Positions 5,638-42,770 of a DNA stretch of 64,000 nt are shown in pieces; position 1 is the stretch's first letter; the number at the start of each line of letters is the position of its first letter. The notes under the pieces are model-generated. The model did not search any database, was not told the origin of the DNA, and saw nothing but the letters and a program-made list of their open reading frames with translations. Source of the stretch: Siphonodentalium dalli (taxonomy: Eukaryota; Mollusca; Scaphopoda; Gadilida; Siphonodentaliidae); assembly GCA_032622095.1 (NCBI GenBank), contig CP136069.1, positions 104,560,278 through 104,624,277 of the forward strand, read 5' to 3'. Position numbers and translations under genes: made by a program.

Positions 5638-5642
5638 ATTAT
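5638..5642. repeat. Left target-site duplication ATTAT
   Basis: ATTAT directly precedes the 5' LTR and is repeated directly after the 3' LTR at 9420-9424. Five base pairs is a usual duplication length for BEL/Pao integrase. Perfect conservation supports a recent, single insertion of the whole 5643-9419 unit. Confidence 0.9.
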
Positions 5643-5775
5643 TGTCGTGGATATTTGTGTGTACTCGTTTGCGACGTAATTGGGTACTGTGACGTCATAT
5701 GGATGTGTGTGGTTACGGTGAAGTAAATGGCTACCTACACATAGCATAGTCTTTAATGTCTCTATTTCCGTGACA
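5643..5775 (+). repeat. 5' LTR, 133 bp
   Basis: Begins TGTCGTGGATATTTG and ends TTTCCGTGACA, so it has the canonical TG...CA ends. It is base-for-base identical to 9287-9419. At 133 bp it is unusually short for an LTR. It carries a full palindromic cAMP-response-type site TGACGTCA (5690-5697), a plausible promoter element. No TATA box or polyadenylation hexamer is evident. Confidence 0.93.
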
Positions 5776-5780
5776 TAAAT

Positions 5781-5798
5781 TGGTCCCTCGAACCGGAA
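5781..5798 (+). promoter_or_regulatory. Primer-binding site (putative)
   Basis: TGGTCCCTCGAACCGGAA starts five bases after the LTR. It opens with the TGG that pairs with the CCA end of a tRNA primer, at the position expected for minus-strand priming. The primer tRNA was not identified. Confidence 0.7.
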
Positions 5799-5800
5799 AG

Positions 5801-7063
5801 ATGTCGATCAAATCAGAACTTTCGCTTAAGGCTATACGGATGAAACGCAGAGCACAGAGAGGACACACCACGCGGTTGATCAAGGATGCTGATATCATGT
5901 TGAACGCCGATCAAGTCGACATGAAGTTTCTTAAGGACGTTTTGGCGATGTTAAACGAAAAAGTTTCTCTTCCTGTTGAAATGGATGATGCAGTTCTTAA
6001 TTTCTTGGTTGATGATGATTCTGAGTTCGACAGAGAATCTGATGATATAGAGAGATACATGAGAGAAATAAAGAGTCAACGTAATTCTTATGTGGCTTTC
6101 GTGGACATTCATGATGCTTGTCGGGTTGGTGCAAGAAGGCCTGTCGCTTCGCCGGAGAATGATCGTGTATGCAATGTTCGTCAAAGTGTTGCACTTCCCA
6201 AACTTTCATTGCCGTTATTTGAGGGCGTATTGGTGCAATGGCAACCATTTTGGGATTCGTTCCATGCTGTGGTGCATTCAGTTCCTGAAGACGAATTACC
6301 ATCGATTCAGAAATTTCAGTATTTACAATCGTTGTTGCGTGGACCTGCGGCAATGTGTGTTGATGGACTATCTTTGACAAAAGATAATTACTTTCATGCA
6401 ATTGCTGTTCTGAAAGAGAGATTCGGACAGACGCATAAAATTATACATGCACATTTGCAGTTGCCTCAAAATAATGTGCACAGTCTTGGTCAGTTTAGAG
6501 ATGTTATTGAGTCGAATATTCGATCTTTGGACGCGTTGGGACAAGGGACATCTTACAGTGACATGCTTTTTTCAATGTTAATTCAAAAGTTTCTGGCGAT
6601 TCAGCGTGGCAATTTGGTGCGTCGATATGGTAATCGCCAATTTTCATTGGAAGACATTAGAGAATTTTTGCGTCTTAAAGTTGATATATTAGATGCCGCT
6701 GAACAAAGTTCTTCTTACGAGCCCACAACTTCAACATTGACCGCACCATCCAACAGGTTTTCATTTAATCAAGTGAAGGATCCGACTGCTTTTCCAAAGG
6801 ATTCAAGTGTTCCAGTTTGCTCGTTTTGCGACGGCAAACATTTACCGGCGAACTGTTCGATGGGTATTAAAGAACGGCTTGATATTGTAAGGTATCGGAG
6901 ACTTTGTTACAATTGCCTTTCTAGTACACATCGATGTTCTGAATGTGTATCGCGCTTCCGTTGTAGACTTTGTTCAAGAAAACATCACACTAGTATATGT
7001 GAGTCGAGCAGTGCTAAAGATGGCATGTTAGTGGAATTTTTGGACGAGTTTCCGGTTATGTGA
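5801..7063 (+). CDS. BEL/Pao gag polyprotein
   Basis: Structural (nucleocapsid/capsid) protein of the retrotransposon, 420 aa from the first ATG, which lies just past the primer-binding site. An upstream TTG at 5780 is open in frame but falls in the primer site and is not preferred. The DUF1759 region is marked by LPKLSLPLFEG near residue 133, FQYLQSLLRGPAA near 172 and a LKERFGQ block near 204. The C-terminus carries a CxxC...H...C zinc knuckle at about residues 340-352 and a second cysteine-rich knuckle beginning CYNCLSSTH, as in BEL/Pao gags. The frame ends at a UGA (7061-7063) and continues open in the same frame into the protease, so gag-pro expression would need stop-codon readthrough unless the UGA is a mutation. 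Confidence 0.9.
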   Translation: MSIKSELSLKAIRMKRRAQRGHTTRLIKDADIMLNADQVDMKFLKDVLAMLNEKVSLPVEMDDAVLNFLVDDDSEFDRESDDIERYMREIKSQRNSYVAFVDIHDACRVGARRPVASPENDRVCNVRQSVALPKLSLPLFEGVLVQWQPFWDSFHAVVHSVPEDELPSIQKFQYLQSLLRGPAAMCVDGLSLTKDNYFHAIAVLKERFGQTHKIIHAHLQLPQNNVHSLGQFRDVIESNIRSLDALGQGTSYSDMLFSMLIQKFLAIQRGNLVRRYGNRQFSLEDIREFLRLKVDILDAAEQSSSYEPTTSTLTAPSNRFSFNQVKDPTAFPKDSSVPVCSFCDGKHLPANCSMGIKERLDIVRYRRLCYNCLSSTHRCSECVSRFRCRLCSRKHHTSICESSSAKDGMLVEFLDEFPVM

Positions 7064-7090
7064 CGAACAATCAGAGTTCATTACATTGTA

Positions 7091-8692
7091 ATGTCAAATC
7101 TGACAGTGGAAATAATGGTAACTATATCAACGGTGCTGTACTACCGACGGTTTTCGCATCATTACTCCTTGTTAAAAACTGCAATTTCAGATGTATCTTC
7201 CGGGACGACTACTATTGCAGCCAACATTCTGTTAGACGATGGTTCACAGACTTTTTTTATCAGACAGGGTTTCGCTGAAGAACTAGGGCTCGTACCGATT
7301 GGACAACGGGAGATAAGTATTTCGGCGTTTGGGTCCACGAGTTCTGACAAGCGTTATTTGAATGTCGCAAAAGTGAATCTCTTATGTGACAATGGTGCGA
7401 TTGAACTTGAACTCCTTATTGTTCCTACAATTTCTACACCACTGAACATTAAGTTGAACAAAAATATTAGACATTATCCTCATTTGAAAAGACTCAAATT
7501 AGCACATCCTGTTACCGGTGCTGATACGTTTAACATTGACATTTTAGTGGGAGCTGATTTTTATTACGATGTAGTGGAGGATACGCAAATAAGAGGAGTT
7601 GACGGGCCAGTGGCTGTTAAATCGAAAGTCGGTTTCTTGATTACAGGACCTGTCCGTAATCAGACAACTGCTGAAGTGTTGGAGATCACTGATTCCTCTA
7701 GTAAAGCAATTAGAGATGAAGTGATCAGGATGAAGGAAAAATTGCTCAACTCTTTCAAGGATCAAATGGAACTCAGGAAAAGTCTAATGGAATTGAACAA
7801 CGCATCGATGGAAGTTAGTCTGGAAACAAACAGAAACCAGCTAACTGTCAGCCATTTTGAAGTAGAGAAAACTAAAATGTTACGCAAACGAGAACAAGAT
7901 GGCACAGAGCCTGATGGAAAGATAAAAGATTTAGATAATGCCACGGACTTGGCTGGTTCTGACTTGCTACAAGACCCCGATGATGTCAAGACAGCTAGAG
8001 ATGAGCTGAAAGTACTACACGCAGAGAAACAGAAAACGGAGAAAATACGCATCACAATTCAGAAAGAACTAGAGGAGTCCAAATCAAGAACGGGGATATT
8101 GGAGGAGGGTATTCCCGGAACCATTAACAGTGTAGAACACCGAGAGATTCTTCAGCCTTTGTGTAGGGTACATGAGCTGGAGATGAAGAATATGGAATCT
8201 CATTCATCGTGTCTGCTGCGTGACTTCCAAATCAAAAAGAAAGATATGATCCTAACGCAGTATCGGACACACAGGAATCTGTGTGATGAAATCATACAAC
8301 AACAGAAAGTCCTCATTGATGACAACAACGTCGATACTCCAAAGGATCTCGATGAATTGTACGATCTCTATTTCTTGGAACGGAAGAACAAAATATTCCA
8401 AGCCGACGAATCTGACTCAAAAGAGATGTTGAGCTACACAAGACTGGCGCCGATACCAAGCAGCAAAAACGACGAGAAAATATTTACACCTAGTGCTAAA
8501 CTGAAGGATATGAAGCATTCCGAGAGCAAACCTAACTCCAAAGCAAGGCATAACCCTCCGTTAAACCAAATATGGAGAAATAACTCGTTTGTTAACCTGA
8601 ACTCTGGGAGAAATTCTCCGTCCACTCCCGGATCTAAAGCTTACTCTGATGATCCGCGAGTTCGGCCGACAGATGGCTCTTTGTTCGGTTAA
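7091..8692 (+). CDS. BEL/Pao aspartic protease fused in frame to KIF19 coiled-coil tail
   Basis: 533 aa from the first ATG; the frame is open from 7064, directly after the gag UGA. Residues ~27-190 are a DUF1758 retroviral-type aspartic protease. The catalytic Asp is in LLDDGSQ (Asp49), with conserved LIVPTISTPL, LKLAHPV, ILVGADFYYD and GPVAVKSKVG blocks. Instead of reverse transcriptase, residues from about 205-215 onward match the post-motor region of KIF19, a kinesin-8-related ciliary motor. Landmarks are MELRKSLMELNNASMEV (225-241), HREILQPLCRVHELE (350-364), RNLCDEIIQQQKVLIDD (395-411) and LDELYDLY (420-427). The segment is helical and coiled-coil-like, then Ser/Pro-rich. There is no motor domain and no intron. 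It ends at a TAA, while KIF19-like sequence continues in another frame. Confidence 0.88.
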   Translation: MSNLTVEIMVTISTVLYYRRFSHHYSLLKTAISDVSSGTTTIAANILLDDGSQTFFIRQGFAEELGLVPIGQREISISAFGSTSSDKRYLNVAKVNLLCDNGAIELELLIVPTISTPLNIKLNKNIRHYPHLKRLKLAHPVTGADTFNIDILVGADFYYDVVEDTQIRGVDGPVAVKSKVGFLITGPVRNQTTAEVLEITDSSSKAIRDEVIRMKEKLLNSFKDQMELRKSLMELNNASMEVSLETNRNQLTVSHFEVEKTKMLRKREQDGTEPDGKIKDLDNATDLAGSDLLQDPDDVKTARDELKVLHAEKQKTEKIRITIQKELEESKSRTGILEEGIPGTINSVEHREILQPLCRVHELEMKNMESHSSCLLRDFQIKKKDMILTQYRTHRNLCDEIIQQQKVLIDDNNVDTPKDLDELYDLYFLERKNKIFQADESDSKEMLSYTRLAPIPSSKNDEKIFTPSAKLKDMKHSESKPNSKARHNPPLNQIWRNNSFVNLNSGRNSPSTPGSKAYSDDPRVRPTDGSLFG

Positions 8693-9234
8693 ATCCCTTG
8701 AATCGGAATCGATCACAGAGCCTATCTCCTGTTCCTAGGGCTTCACGCAAAGACGCTAATAGGTCAAGGACGGTAAGTCCAAAAAGCCCAACTGGATCTC
8801 TGAACTCTCTGGAGGAAAAGAGCGTAATTTCTGTGAGCACGCGTGGAATAGCTGCTCTGGCAGCGAAAAAGAAATCAAAAGTGCACGCTTCCAATTATGA
8901 GAGACAGAGAGTCAGTTGCCCACTTTTTCGGCCTGTTCGGGAGAATCCGGAAGAACGTGAGGACTATTTGTCACCAAGCAGGCTGGAGAGACACAATAGA
9001 ATATTCAGCGATCCGACAAGTTCACACGTGGCGGATCCTGATATTCAAACTAGCATGTTTCTTGACGATCGCAACAACCGACATGCAATCCACGAGGAGT
9101 ATAGTCGAAGTGGCGCAAGAAAAGCTGAATTGATGAGGCTTAGGAAGAACAGACCACCCGATAATGAGCGGCAGCATCAAAATAGACCTTCAGACATAAC
9201 ATCGGTAAGGACACTAAAGCGAAGACACGGATGA
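8653..9234 (+). pseudogene. Continuation of KIF19 C-terminal tail, out of frame
   Basis: This frame overlaps the end of the fusion and is open for about 193 codons without an upstream ATG. The product is Ser/Arg/Pro-rich (for example NRNRSQSLSPVP and TRGIAALAAKKKSKV) and ends KRRHG at a TGA. Its composition and position fit the disordered basic C-terminus of a KIF19 orthologue. A one-base indel near 8655-8692 would explain why it is not in frame with the preceding fusion. Only 52 bp separate its stop from the 3' LTR, so the captured segment probably reaches the natural C-terminus. KIF19 tails are poorly conserved here, so this part is less certain than the coiled-coil match. Confidence 0.6.
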
Positions 9235-9286
9235 TGAACTATATAAATGTTGCTAGAACTCAATTTATCCCCTCCCCACCGGAGAA

Positions 9287-9419
9287 TGTCGTGGATATTT
9301 GTGTGTACTCGTTTGCGACGTAATTGGGTACTGTGACGTCATATGGATGTGTGTGGTTACGGTGAAGTAAATGGCTACCTACACATAGCATAGTCTTTAA
9401 TGTCTCTATTTCCGTGACA
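9287..9419 (+). repeat. 3' LTR, 133 bp
   Basis: Identical in all 133 positions to 5643-5775. Upstream there is no clear polypurine tract: the preceding bases are pyrimidine-rich (CCCCTCCCCACC) and then GGAGAA. The plus-strand primer may therefore be very short, or it was altered at the capture junction. Confidence 0.93.
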
Positions 9420-9424
9420 ATTAT
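9420..9424. repeat. Right target-site duplication ATTAT
   Basis: Matches the five bases before the 5' LTR (5638-5642). Confidence 0.9.
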
Positions 9425-9463
9425 ACCATATAGTTCAGTGGGCAAGATACCTTTGACGGAGAT

Positions 9464-9787
9464 ACAATATTTTTCTAAATAAGTAAAATATATATCTCCT
9501 AGAAGTATCTTGCCCACTGAGCTCCCTCCCAGGGTTTCGCACCCACCCACCCCGCTCACGAGGAATGTCCTAATGGGGAAAAAGTGAGAATAACGATTTG
9601 GCGTCGAGTTTAAATGGACATTGGGAGATGACGTCATCAGAGGTTACCGGTCAGGAAACAGGATAAAATGTACCACAGAATTTTCGTTTGTTAACCCTTC
9701 CTTGTTAATATTGTGGATATACCATATAGTTCAGTGGGCAAGATACTTCTAGGAGATATATATTTTACTTGTTTAGAAAAATATTGT
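9464..9787. mobile_element. MITE-like derivative of the GTATCTTGCCC TIR family
   Basis: About 324 bp. The left arm (9464-9527) and right arm (9727-9787) are inverted copies that include TATCTCCTAGAA and GTATCTTGCCCACTGA. The loop holds 9575-9746, the inverted counterpart of 1831-2019. It reads as an internally deleted member of the family that bounds 1816-9465. It also carries TGACGTCA. No coding capacity. Confidence 0.65.
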
Positions 9788-9950
9788 TTCCTTCTTAATA
9801 TGCTTCCTTCACAAGGACCATCATGTCTATTTTATAAAAAGGCGCTTGTGAGATTGGAAATTTCCAACAATTGGGAAAGTTTGAGATGTCAATTGTGTAA
9901 TTCCAACCTAAGACTTGGGAGTCTGGAGCCCAGTCGGGAGGGGACTTGTT

Positions 9951-9976: not shown

Positions 9977-10135
9977 TAGTGTAGAGTTGGTAATTTGGCC
10001 ACATATCCTGTTTAGATCTACTTCTTTTAAAGTGATTATGAAAAGTTCTGACTGTTGTGGTCTCCAGAGTCCCAGTGTTTGCAGTCTGGTGAGCGACCCC
10101 ACAGTCATTGACTGTCTTGTTATATTGCCATTTTG
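9977..10135. repeat. Dispersed repeat D with palindrome ACAGTCATTGACTGT
   Basis: Shares a stretch with about 48640-48875 and 53480-53895. The order is a TGACT/TAACT...GTGGTCTCCAGAGTCCC-type block, then CAGTCTGGTGAG, then ACAGTCATTGACTGTCTTGTT at the end. The 15-bp palindrome is kept in all three copies. Here it abuts the transposase remnant, apparently replacing its 5' part. Confidence 0.65.
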
Positions 10136-10140
10136 ATTCT

Positions 10141-10731
10141 ATGAGAGATGTGATGTTTCCAGATAGGAATATTCTGAAAAAGTCTGTGCCAAAATCACAG
10201 AAAGGATTCAAGAATGTACGGTGTTCCATTGACTGCACTGAATTATATGTGCAGATGCCAAGAAATCTGGCAAGACAAAGTAATTTGTTTTCAAATTATA
10301 AACATCACCATACATTCAAATGCCTGATAGCTGTGGCCCCTAATGGAACAGCAGTGTTCGTGTCTGATCTTTATGAAGGAGCTATGAGTTACCGAGACAT
10401 ATTTCAGAAATGTGGAATTTTGAACCATCTCCATCCAGGTGATCTTATCCTGGTGGACAGGGGTTTTACTGTGGAGGATATACTGATGTCACGTCAAGTG
10501 CATATGAACATACCTCCATTTTTGATGGGTCATGATAAACTCACTGCTCAGGAGGAACTTCTGACCAGGAAGATCACTAAAGCACGAATACATGTTGAGA
10601 GGTTCAATGAACGAATCAAAAAGTTTCGTCTAATATCTGGCATCATGCCACTCAGTATGACACCGATGGCAACTCAAGTTGTTTTTATTGCCTGTTGTCT
10701 TGTAAACTTTCAAGACCAGTTGGCCAAGTAG
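10141..10731 (+). pseudogene. ISL2EU/Harbinger-type DDE transposase, 5'-truncated
   Basis: 196 codons from an internal ATG. It matches the catalytic DDE_Tnp_4 domain found in ISL2EU (IS4EU) and Harbinger-type transposases. The catalytic triad is visible: Asp in CSIDCTELYV (about residue 31), Asp in LILVDRGF (about 108) and Glu in ARIHVERF (about 154). The PPFLMG and CCLVNFQ blocks near the end are also typical. The N-terminal helix-turn-helix and any THAP-like region are missing. Upstream sequence is an unrelated dispersed repeat, so this is a truncated copy even though the remaining frame is intact. It faces the minus-strand YqaJ-type gene at 11342-12569, the partner expected in this transposon group. 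Confidence 0.85.
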
Positions 10732-25261: not shown

Positions 25262-25758
25262 ACATGTCATGTTACGAATCTCTATAGTCTGCATGTACTA
25301 AATGATAGAGAACAGAGTAGATATTCATGGCTTGCATGATCGATCTACCCCCCAGGTCAGGTCAGGTCAGGTCCAGTTAAAAGGTTTAAAATGATCTCAA
25401 ATAAAATTCCCCATACTGATAGAATGACATGTGTGAACAACCTGACAAATCAATATAATGATCAATATAACTGAAGCAGCATGAAACAAGTTAGATATTG
25501 CCAACCCACTCAAACAACTGTGTTCTAGTTTAATTACACACCCGGATGACAATGAAGGGTCACTCATTAATTTCTTGTTCAAAGGTATTCTTCATGAGCT
25601 GCTTAATTGCCATATAAATAAAACACAAATGTTCTGTTAAGATTATGTCTTTTCCAAGGATGTTGATGCATTATTTGAATATCTTGAAATTCCTTTTATT
25701 TATTTATTTATGATATGGCATGTAATATAATAATAACTCTGTTCTGGTCCATTGATAG
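24881..25758. other. Intron upstream of GAK exon 2; C35 run
   Basis: Contains a run of about 35 C at 25227-25261 and a (GGTCA)n stretch at 25355-25373. It ends in the acceptor ATTGATAG at 25758. No other gene is seen. Confidence 0.6.
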
Positions 25759-26832
25759 GAGCATCAGAGAGAGCTCGAAACAGAATGCAGAGAAGCTCAA
25801 GCCTAAGCTCAAATGAGAGTCCAGTTCATAAACCATTCAGCGACGAACCTAAACCAACCAGTAAGCCTTCAACGAACAACATTGATAAAGAAACAACTAA
25901 GAAGTCAGAGCCTCCCACTGGCTCCTTCTTTGATACACTTGATTGGAAGGACAATTATGGATCTGTTCCTGATGAGCCTGTGGTGCCACATATAATCCAG
26001 GAAATGGAAATCAAGTTAATAGACAATGAAAGCTCAGATGATGAAGATTTCTCATCTTTATCAAATAATGCTGGTCAAATAAAGGAGAACAAATTTAATT
26101 CAATATTTGGAACTCATTTCAAATCACCCCCATGTCCTCCAACTACCCCGAATCCTCCTGAGCAGGATGCTGACCTTTTAAACATAGGTAGTGGCCCAAC
26201 TCAAAATGTCAACAGTTTCGTTGACAAATTAGACTTATTAAATATTGGCGGGAGCATTGCTGATGGTAGTTCTAGGAATTTAGACTTATTATCTGGTGGC
26301 GGCGGCACCTCAGACTTTGATTTCTTTGGACAAATGGACAGTATGAACAAACCATCTCAACCATCTAGTCAAACTACAGTAAAAAACAATACATTTGACC
26401 CATTCAAAGCTGCCGGAGACAAAACATCAGCAGGTAATGACTTCTTCAATATGATGGACAGTAATTCCAACAATCCCCCTGCTTCAAATGACTTAATTGG
26501 CAGCTGGGGATCAACTATAAAGACAAACATGACTTCGACAGGTTCAGGTGGCAGTGACAAGGACTTATTCAGTAATTGGAATTCAGGAAAAAATAACCAG
26601 TTCCAATCTGACATTCCAAAGAACAATAGTTTTAGTAGTTTTGGTTCTGCTGGAGTTCCTAGAAATAATAGTTTTAATAATTTATCGTCTGGAATGACTA
26701 CAAATATGCCGAAAACAAACAGTTTCAATAACTTGGACAGTGTGAATTCTTCTGGATGCAATGATGGTTTAAATCCAAATACCACAGAGGCACAGTCCAA
26801 TCAGATGAAAAATGACCCATTTGCAAACTTCG
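25759..26832 (+). CDS. GAK/auxilin exon: clathrin- and AP2-binding linker
   Basis: A 1074-nt exon between acceptor GATAG and donor CG|GTAAGT. With the previous exon it reads FG|ASERARN..., and its phases match. The product is a low-complexity linker rich in endocytic motifs: FFDTLDW (equivalent to FLHTLDW in vertebrate GAK), an acidic ESSDDEDF stretch, and clathrin-box-like DLLNI twice and DLLSG once. Further on come DPF twice (FDPFKAA, NDPFANF), DFF/DLF motifs, tryptophan motifs DLIGSWGS and DLFSNWNS, and NSF-containing repeats near the C-terminus. In vertebrate GAK this region binds clathrin and AP2 and precedes the J domain. The J-domain exons should follow but were not found in the remaining 37 kb. 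Confidence 0.88.
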
Positions 26833-26867
26833 GTAAGTAATTATAAATTTTTAGACTCCCGTTTTTT

Positions 26868-40562: not shown

Positions 40563-42770
40563 ATGATGGATTCAATTTCAATTATGGATTCGTTATTATT
40601 AACAAATGAAGAGGCATTACAGGTGTTAGAGGAGTCGGACAGTGAAAGTGATTTTGGTGGATACGATTTTGATTTGTTAACAAATAAAGAGGCATTTGAC
40701 ATATTTAATTCGGACAGTGAAGCCAGTGATTTCAGTGGGTTCTATTCCGAGTCGGACGAGGAGCGAGATTTATCGGAAGATGAGAGTGATGGAGAAACAG
40801 TTGAAAACGGCACAGTAAATTCAAACTGTGCAAAGGTTGGCCCCATACTCCCGGACGGGTTTGAGAAAGTCACACCACTTGCTTATTTTGAACTGTTTAT
40901 GGAGGATGGCATATATGAACATATAGCAAAAAATACAAATGCATATGCCGAAATGATTACTTGTGAAAAGGGAGTGGGAGATCCCCGTTGGTCCCCAACA
41001 AATGGTGCCGAAATTCGGGCCTATTTCGGCCAAGTTATTCCGATTATTGGAGTAAGAATGAGTTCATGGGCAATGCTGGATTCCAGAAAGCGATGACGAA
41101 GGCGCGGTACGAAACGCTGACACAATACTTGCATTTGAATGTTGATGCAGCAAGAACACCGAGAATTGATCCAGATTACCACCCGATAAACAAAGTTAAG
41201 CCAATGTTTGATATGACCAGTAAAATTTTATGAAACATTTCAAACATTCCAAAGAGATCTCTATAGACGAAGCCATGTAGGGTTACAGAGGTCAATCGGA
41301 AATTAGACAGTATATGCCAAATAAACCCGACAAATTTGGTATCAAATTCTTAGCAACGTGCGATGGGAGGAATCATTTTATGTCTAAATATCAATTGTAT
41401 ACAGGTAAAAGAGATCGCACTGCTATCCAAAACCAATATGGTCTAGGCTATAGAGTTATTCGGGATATGAGCAGGGAGCTGACAAACAAAGGACATGTGT
41501 TATACTATGATAGGTACTTTACTGGGATTCCACTCATTCGTCACCTGAGAATTAAGGGATGGTCTACATAGCTGTGCCACTATTAACCTTAACAGAAAGG
41601 GTCTGCCGGACGAAGTTAAAAATAAGGCAGCTCTTAAGAAAGAAATTCCGTCAAGAGGTGCGGTATATTATATAGCCCAACAAGAAATGATAATTATACA
41701 TTAAGTAACACGATCTTCTTTCTAAATTGAAACAAAACTAAAGAAAACGTGTCTGATATGTTTGTAGGCCTACATGTAAAAAATAAAACAAAACACTATG
41801 TATATACATGTAACATTCAATAGTACATTATAATTTGCTTATCTTGTTGTGGCTTGCCATCGCTTGAATGTTACGATTTCGTACGGATATATACGCATAA
41901 GTATGTGTAGGCCTAAACTGTACATGTAAAGTGCAGCATATATGCTGTTAACTAGATATATATGATTTTATAAATTGAATTTAAAAGCTATGAAAAAGAT
42001 AAACATAAATTGAACAAAATTTCACAGGTTTATATATATATATGTATATATATATATGTTTTTCCCATCTGAAGAACCATGTCTGTAAGCAGTTTTGTTT
42101 TTAAGTTATTAAAATATACTGGTACGGTACGATATCTAAAACTCATTTTTCAGGTGACAGTGTAACATACCAGGAGCACCATAGTCGAATTGTCGCATGG
42201 AACGATAACAATATTGTTGTACTTGCACACAACCTGTCAGAGGCAGATGGTAGTTCTGTTTGTAAGAGGCGAGTTAATGGGCAATTAGTCGAGATTCCTC
42301 AACCTAATGCAATTAAATTGTATAATCAACATATGAACGGAGTGGATGTACATGACCAAATGCGAAAGAAGTACCCAAGCGGAAGATCATCAAAGAAATA
42401 TTTGAAGTTCATTATGTGGTTCATGGTTGATTGTAGTAGGGTCAACTCGGCTGTATGTTACAATTTGGTCTCTAAGAGAGTTATTAAAGGAAAGAAAGGG
42501 GTCAAGATGGACCAGAAGGACTTTATCCTTGAACTGGGAGAATTGCTCATTAATGGGTATACTTGTCGAAAACGACAGTGTTCCGATAAGCCCGGTGTTG
42601 GTAACCACATCAAACTAACACATATGCATGTAAAGCTTCCAGGAAAGCAGAAGCGCTGCAAATCTTGCTTTGCAAATCAAATTCGCAGGGAGACAGTGTA
42701 TGGATGTCCGACCTGTGACATACACTTATGTTCAGGCTGTTTCACCAAGAAACACTCAATTGAGTCATAA
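40563..42770 (+). pseudogene. piggyBac transposase with an intron, several breaks
   Basis: Starts at ATG 40563 with an acidic Ser/Asp-rich N-terminus (LEESDSESDFGGYDFD). The DDE_Tnp_1_7 domain is readable in pieces: SYSDYWSKNEFMGN, ISIDEAM (first catalytic Asp), YYDRYFTGIPL (second) and MNGVDVHDQM (third and fourth Asp). The C-terminal cysteine-rich zinc finger is intact (CKSCFANQ, CPTCDIHLCSGCF). Breaks are a frameshift near 41040, a TGA at 41231-41233, a TAG right after ISIDEAM at 41278-41280, and a frameshift near 41570. A 496-nt intron at 41658-42153 (AGAG|GTGCGG ... TTTTTCAG|GTGAC) restores SRGDSVTY when removed. All catalytic Asp residues remain, but the gene is dead. Confidence 0.85.

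Follow-up and report, generated by a model that had tools for sequence, protein, structure and literature searches.

The 64-kb window analyzed here (the whole stretch of 64,000 nucleotides, from contig CP136069.1 of the scaphopod Siphonodentalium dalli) contains a long terminal repeat (LTR) unit in which a gag gene and a protease are followed by a piece of the tail of the kinesin KIF19 (Table 1). The start-to-start distance of the two LTRs is 3644 bases, and their TG...CA termini together with the 5-bp ATTAT flanks are those of a BEL/Pao-type LTR element. A first-pass annotation, made from the sequence alone, had listed identical 133-bp LTRs, an ATTAT target duplication and a primer site. The repeats agree at every base and the duplication is present on both sides, while the primer site is a plausible candidate with a presumptive tRNA: the stretch TGGTCCCTCGAACCGG resembles what we take to be the end of tRNA-Tyr. 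No second copy of the LTR, the internal part, gag or the protease was found within the window.

Table 1. Features of the LTR unit and its flanks, in window positions.
Feature	Position	Strand	Basis
Target-site duplication ATTAT, left copy	5638..5642	.	Read from the sequence
LTR unit	5643..9419	+	LTRs, ATTAT duplication, candidate primer site, gag, protease, KIF19 piece
5' LTR, 133 bp, TG...CA	5643..5775	+	133/133 identical to 9287-9419
Putative tRNA primer-binding site TGGTCCCTCGAACCGG	5781..5796	+	Five bases inside the 5' LTR
gag: DUF1759 and three C/H knuckle-like motifs, ends in TGA	5801..7063	+	DUF1759, E 6.1e-29
Open frame of 533 codons: protease and KIF19 tail, in frame	7091..8692	+	533 codons open across the junction
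Protease (DUF1758)	7169..7684	+	DUF1758, E 5.4e-6; 38% identity to P0037 here
Protease/KIF19 junction interval	7655..7711	+	End of protease similarity versus start of KIF19 alignment
KIF19 tail, first part (Haliotis KIF19 434-742)	7682..8650	+	Protein search and tblastn, protease frame
Frame-change interval within the KIF19 part	8653..8692	+	tblastn and stops in both frames
KIF19 tail, second part, other frame	8698..9234	+	28/32 proteins match in this frame
3' LTR, TG...CA	9287..9419	+	133/133 identical to the 5' LTR
Target-site duplication ATTAT, right copy	9420..9424	.	Read from the sequence

The gag frame runs from its first ATG to an in-frame TGA at 7061-7063, and the knuckle-like motifs near its end were read by eye. 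The protease lies in the following open frame, which shares the phase of gag. DUF1759 and DUF1758 are associated with BEL/Pao elements, and this pair is found here in gag and protease, as the first-pass annotation had proposed for the two genes; in the gag relative P0038 both domains co-occur with Peptidase_A17. A protein search with gag gave seven relatives that were 24-33% identical, and in five of them (P0035, P0037, P0038, P0039, and P0041) the gag and protease matches fall within one predicted protein. The TGA between the two genes may therefore be a lesion or may serve for recoding. Of the gag-protease-KIF19 layout described earlier, the in-frame joining of protease to KIF19 holds, but the stop sets gag apart from that frame.

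Similarity to other proteases ends at about 7651 with P0038 and at about 7684 with P0037. By tblastn, 32 KIF19-type proteins (P0003-P0034) were aligned to window positions 7000-9419. The alignments begin at 7682 for 24 of them (range 7616-7778) and clearly conserved KIF19 residues begin at 7712; the junction is known as an interval and not to the base. The switch from protease to KIF19 is in frame, as had been noted. All 32 proteins aligned in the protease frame, with ends as far as 8671, and 28 aligned in a second frame, with starts at 8653-8806 and ends at 9000-9231; for Haliotis KIF19 the second segment spans 8716-9222. The limits of the frame-change interval are set by the stop of the first frame at 8692 and by the stops that interrupt the second frame upstream of 8653.

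A protein search that admitted a wider length range and counted only the tail in scoring matched the piece to 31 of 3132 candidate proteins. The best match was KIF19 of Haliotis cracherodii (E 8.6e-75, 49% identical at 96% coverage of the scored piece), and the similarity over 7730-8650 on which the first-pass reading depended is thereby present. A kinesin motor domain is present in every one of the 31 proteins, among which 21 are named KIF19, KIF19-like or KIF18_19, five are named hypothetical and five are nameless. The closest KIF19 proteins are mostly molluscan, which points to a lophotrochozoan host. A chance likeness of coiled coils to kinesins was ruled out, as the match spans loops and the disordered tail at this E-value. 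All 54 tblastn matches fall inside the element and none elsewhere in the window, which also rules out, within the window, that the element had jumped into the host's own KIF19 gene. The similarity is lost gradually over about 9150-9231, and the KIF19 C-terminal motif LPTIPxYRKGDITVTGF is absent from all three frames up to the 3' LTR. The piece is therefore internal to the tail and cut at both ends, and the stop at 9232-9234 probably does not correspond to that of KIF19. The first pass had proposed 7680-9234 for alignment with KIF19; the similarity does reach nearly that far, but across a frameshift and without the C-terminal end. As a separate observation, several copies of a 12-residue motif, LETTRNQLIVTH with variants, make up the end of P0003 (Nucella lapillus KIF19); they may stem from faulty annotation or from a repeat that expanded locally.

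The domain order of P0038 is DUF1759, DUF1758, RVT_1, and Peptidase_A17 (no integrase is listed for it), so a reverse transcriptase would be expected right after the protease. Here, the match of the protease to P0037 ends where KIF19 starts, and the last stop lies just 52 bases short of the 3' LTR. A Pfam scan of four pieces of the element gave no domain of a polymerase or an integrase. Judged from this order, the internal KIF19 piece is in the place of pol, in line with the replacement and the non-autonomous state proposed in the first pass. Pao-type reverse transcriptase, RNase H and integrase, the basis of BEL/Pao classification, are all missing from the pieces scanned, and therefore we file the element as a non-autonomous derivative; with no reverse transcriptase to classify, its placement in BEL/Pao is by gag and protease only. 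A processed pseudogene inside an intact element was ruled out, as no pol was found on either side in these pieces. Relatives of the element were not confirmed among 62 pattern matches in bacterial and archaeal contigs or among 30 in viral contigs, and another viral search gave 0 matches.

Taken together, the locus very probably holds a non-autonomous BEL/Pao-type LTR retrotransposon with a piece of the KIF19 tail captured from mRNA by template switching. A virus-like particle would have packaged spliced KIF19 mRNA beside the element RNA, and the reverse transcriptase would have switched from the element RNA to the KIF19 message and then back. The internal tail segment equivalent to roughly residues 434-880 of Haliotis would thereby have landed after the protease and ahead of the element's 3' end, replacing pol. 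The chimeric cDNA would have kept the LTRs and the primer site and would have been integrated by enzymes supplied in trans; as none were found in the element, its movement would need those of a partner. Such packaging of cellular mRNA, with template switching at short similarities and an often partial copy, is described for LTR-mediated retrocopies in the summary given in PMC5408686. The anatomy fits this published mechanism: the LTRs, the primer site and gag are kept, and the host coding piece lies inside with both gene ends missing. The earlier proposal that host mRNA had recombined into a BEL/Pao lineage is thus borne out in that KIF19 stands in the place of pol and in frame with the protease, while the mRNA step itself is one that we infer.

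The absence of differences between the LTRs (0/133) sets an upper bound of 2.2% on their divergence (one-sided 95%). This makes the insertion young but leaves its date imprecise, and since the LTRs are short, their identity argues only weakly for the recent mobility claimed in the first pass. The age of the capture was approached with a tree and an identity comparison of a 222-residue core from the window piece and 19 orthologues hand-chosen from the 32 proteins. Identities between the window piece and these range from 47 to 58%, and the piece falls outside the sampled bivalves and gastropods, with no well-supported group containing it, on a branch of 0.81 as compared with a median of 0.19. 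Of the 43 positions at which all 19 orthologues agree, the piece changes only three, all mildly. When the orthologues were left out in turn, Lineus changed 9 of 52 such positions and each mollusc 0 or 1 of 43-44; with positions invariant in molluscs only, the window piece changes 4 of 52 and each mollusc 0-2. The piece thus changes more invariant positions than any mollusc and fewer than Lineus. An unconstrained branch of 0.81 was computed to change about 24 of the 43, and at 0.2 unconstrained changes per site the probability of three or fewer is 0.035. This argument is rough, treating positions as independent, but the unconstrained change since capture was probably under about 0.2 per site, and most of the branch probably reflects evolution within a functional KIF19 gene. 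Therefore, the parent would be the KIF19 of a lineage outside the matches and, with so few invariant positions changed, the capture is probably recent relative to the long branch.

An older capture, compatible with the origin proposed above, could have founded a chimeric gag-protease-KIF19 family that propagates with an autonomous BEL/Pao partner. The long branch of the tail would agree with this, as would a copy that already carries two coding lesions though its LTRs are identical. On the other hand, the lesions may postdate the insertion, the window holds no further copy, and no protease-KIF19 fusion occurs among the proteins matched by either tail search (1 and 31, all with a motor domain). 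The few changes at invariant positions also do not suggest long evolution outside the gene. We regard such a family as a real but tentative possibility.

Several observations weigh against capture of a KIF19 piece from mRNA. With regard to the KIF19 match itself, a Pfam scan of the piece alone gave nothing past the cut-off, a PDB sequence search reached a best E of only 0.062, and the first, length-limited protein search (333-residue piece against short proteins) gave a single match among 970 candidates, Nucella lapillus KIF19 with 63% over 57 residues. With regard to splicing, 7682-9222 amounts to about 513 codons as compared with the 447 residues of Haliotis 434-880, the weakly conserved stretch at about 8540-8790 being longer. 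A short intron may have been retained there; part of the extra length is low-complexity coding sequence, and the stretch contains the frame change. Moreover, a donor-like GTAAGG motif lies at 9205, in the zone of fading KIF19 similarity; it may mark the end of an exon, in which case partly unspliced RNA would have been captured. No poly(A) was seen at the 3' junction, and the erasure of introns and the two switch points are presumed.

The extra length and the GTAAGG motif would also fit a chimera formed at the DNA level, in which part of a KIF19 gene was joined to a decaying element by rearrangement and mobilized later without an mRNA step. However, the conserved core at 7682-8413 comprises 244 codons against 241 residues of P0029 in tblastn, which leaves no room for an intron, whereas animal kinesin tails usually hold several introns in this region. 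GTRAG motifs in 7682-9231 occur only at 8773, 8833, 8957, and 9205, and none lies between 7682 and 8772. With host coding sequence between the LTRs, the locus has the form of a host-gene transduction by an LTR element, and an origin by DNA rearrangement is unlikely.

KIF19A controls cilium length, and the neck coiled coil just after a 353-residue motor construct is needed for dimerization, a 379-residue construct being dimeric, according to PMC5045296. Mouse residue 354 aligns with Haliotis 387, which puts the end of the motor construct at about Haliotis 386, and mouse 379 corresponds to about Haliotis 412 (offset extrapolated). As the captured piece starts at Haliotis 434, it is a kinesin tail without its motor, as had been stated, and it lacks both the motor domain and the neck coil of a functional KIF19 (kinesin-8). 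AlphaFold modeling of the 333-residue piece from 7691 with 22 KIF19 relatives gave a mean pLDDT of 71.8 and a pTM of 0.56, with helices predicted with good confidence at 3-69, 97-144, 148-211, and 218-240, followed by a disordered end. Some association through these predicted helices may occur. The suggested role as a dominant partner of host KIF19 is nevertheless unlikely, because the neck coil lies upstream of the capture, and the frame follows the stop of gag and is broken by the frameshift. Damaged by these two lesions, the present copy most likely makes gag at best and no working kinesin competitor. We also consider it unlikely that a multi-copy transducing BEL/Pao lineage, probably in a lophotrochozoan, retains the KIF19 tail as cargo, either as a protease-KIF19 fusion or as RNA through which small RNAs would silence KIF19 in the germ line or in ciliated cells.

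A protease-KIF19 fusion that is domesticated, or kept under selection by the element or the host, could be read from the 533 codons open across the junction and the well-predicted helices. An open run of 336 codons has a chance of about 1e-9 at this composition, though inherited coding sequence accounts for that. With a TGA before the frame, a frameshift inside it, and the neck coil and C terminus missing, we consider such a fusion very unlikely. A misassembly would not usually yield LTRs without a single difference, a perfect 5-bp duplication and a junction that keeps the reading frame, and an assembly artefact is highly improbable.

Other features were noted in the window. The right flank of the element (9422-9790) lies in a repeat with inverted arms at 9461-9523 and 9728-9790, to which reverse-oriented pieces at 1816-2019 match at 97-100% identity; both are probably MITE-like. 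An open frame at 10108-10731 contains a DDE_Tnp_4 transposase domain (E 7.9e-42). Matches to DDE_Tnp_1_7, presumably of the piggyBac type, were found at 40563-41096 and 42318-42770, the second below Pfam's cut-off. A 362-codon Ser/Asn-rich open frame at 25752-26840, with no Pfam match at E 0.001, is perhaps a host gene exon.

The element seems to add a clear new case to a process that is already known, the joining of host mRNA to a mobile element by reverse transcription. Metazoan LTR-mediated retrocopies (Tan et al. 2016, as summarised in PMC5408686) likewise carry a host mRNA piece, often partial, placed in an LTR element by template switching; the cases named in that summary are from mosquito, Drosophila, zebrafish, and chicken. 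Unlike the retrocopies as summarised there, the present element is BEL/Pao-type, keeps gag and protease, and carries the host piece in frame in the place of pol. Maize Bs1, as outlined in PMC13317346, is an early case of an LTR element that also holds host gene fragments between its LTRs, but it belongs to a plant and its fragments come from three host genes, whereas here an animal element holds one kinesin tail. A mosquito retrotransposon, apparently Bel-Pao (PMC7642597, PMC10084718), also acquired foreign coding sequence, in that case a viral glycoprotein rather than a host gene in the place of pol. A limited, partial literature search gave no BEL/Pao element with a host gene piece in that place and, in titles and the starts of abstracts, with few subscription papers covered, no kinesin captured by an LTR element. 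Acutely transforming retroviruses carry part of gag fused to a host coding piece, have lost pol and need a helper. The element shares these three traits with them, but no envelope gene, growth-promoting host gene or sign of infectious spread was seen in it. At the level of sequence, it shows cleanly how a host gene piece can take the place of the polymerase genes in an LTR retrotransposon of an animal. If other copies exist, the family would allow the capture to be timed, the helper to be found and the retention or loss of the host cargo to be followed, and would represent a non-infectious counterpart of retroviral oncogene capture.

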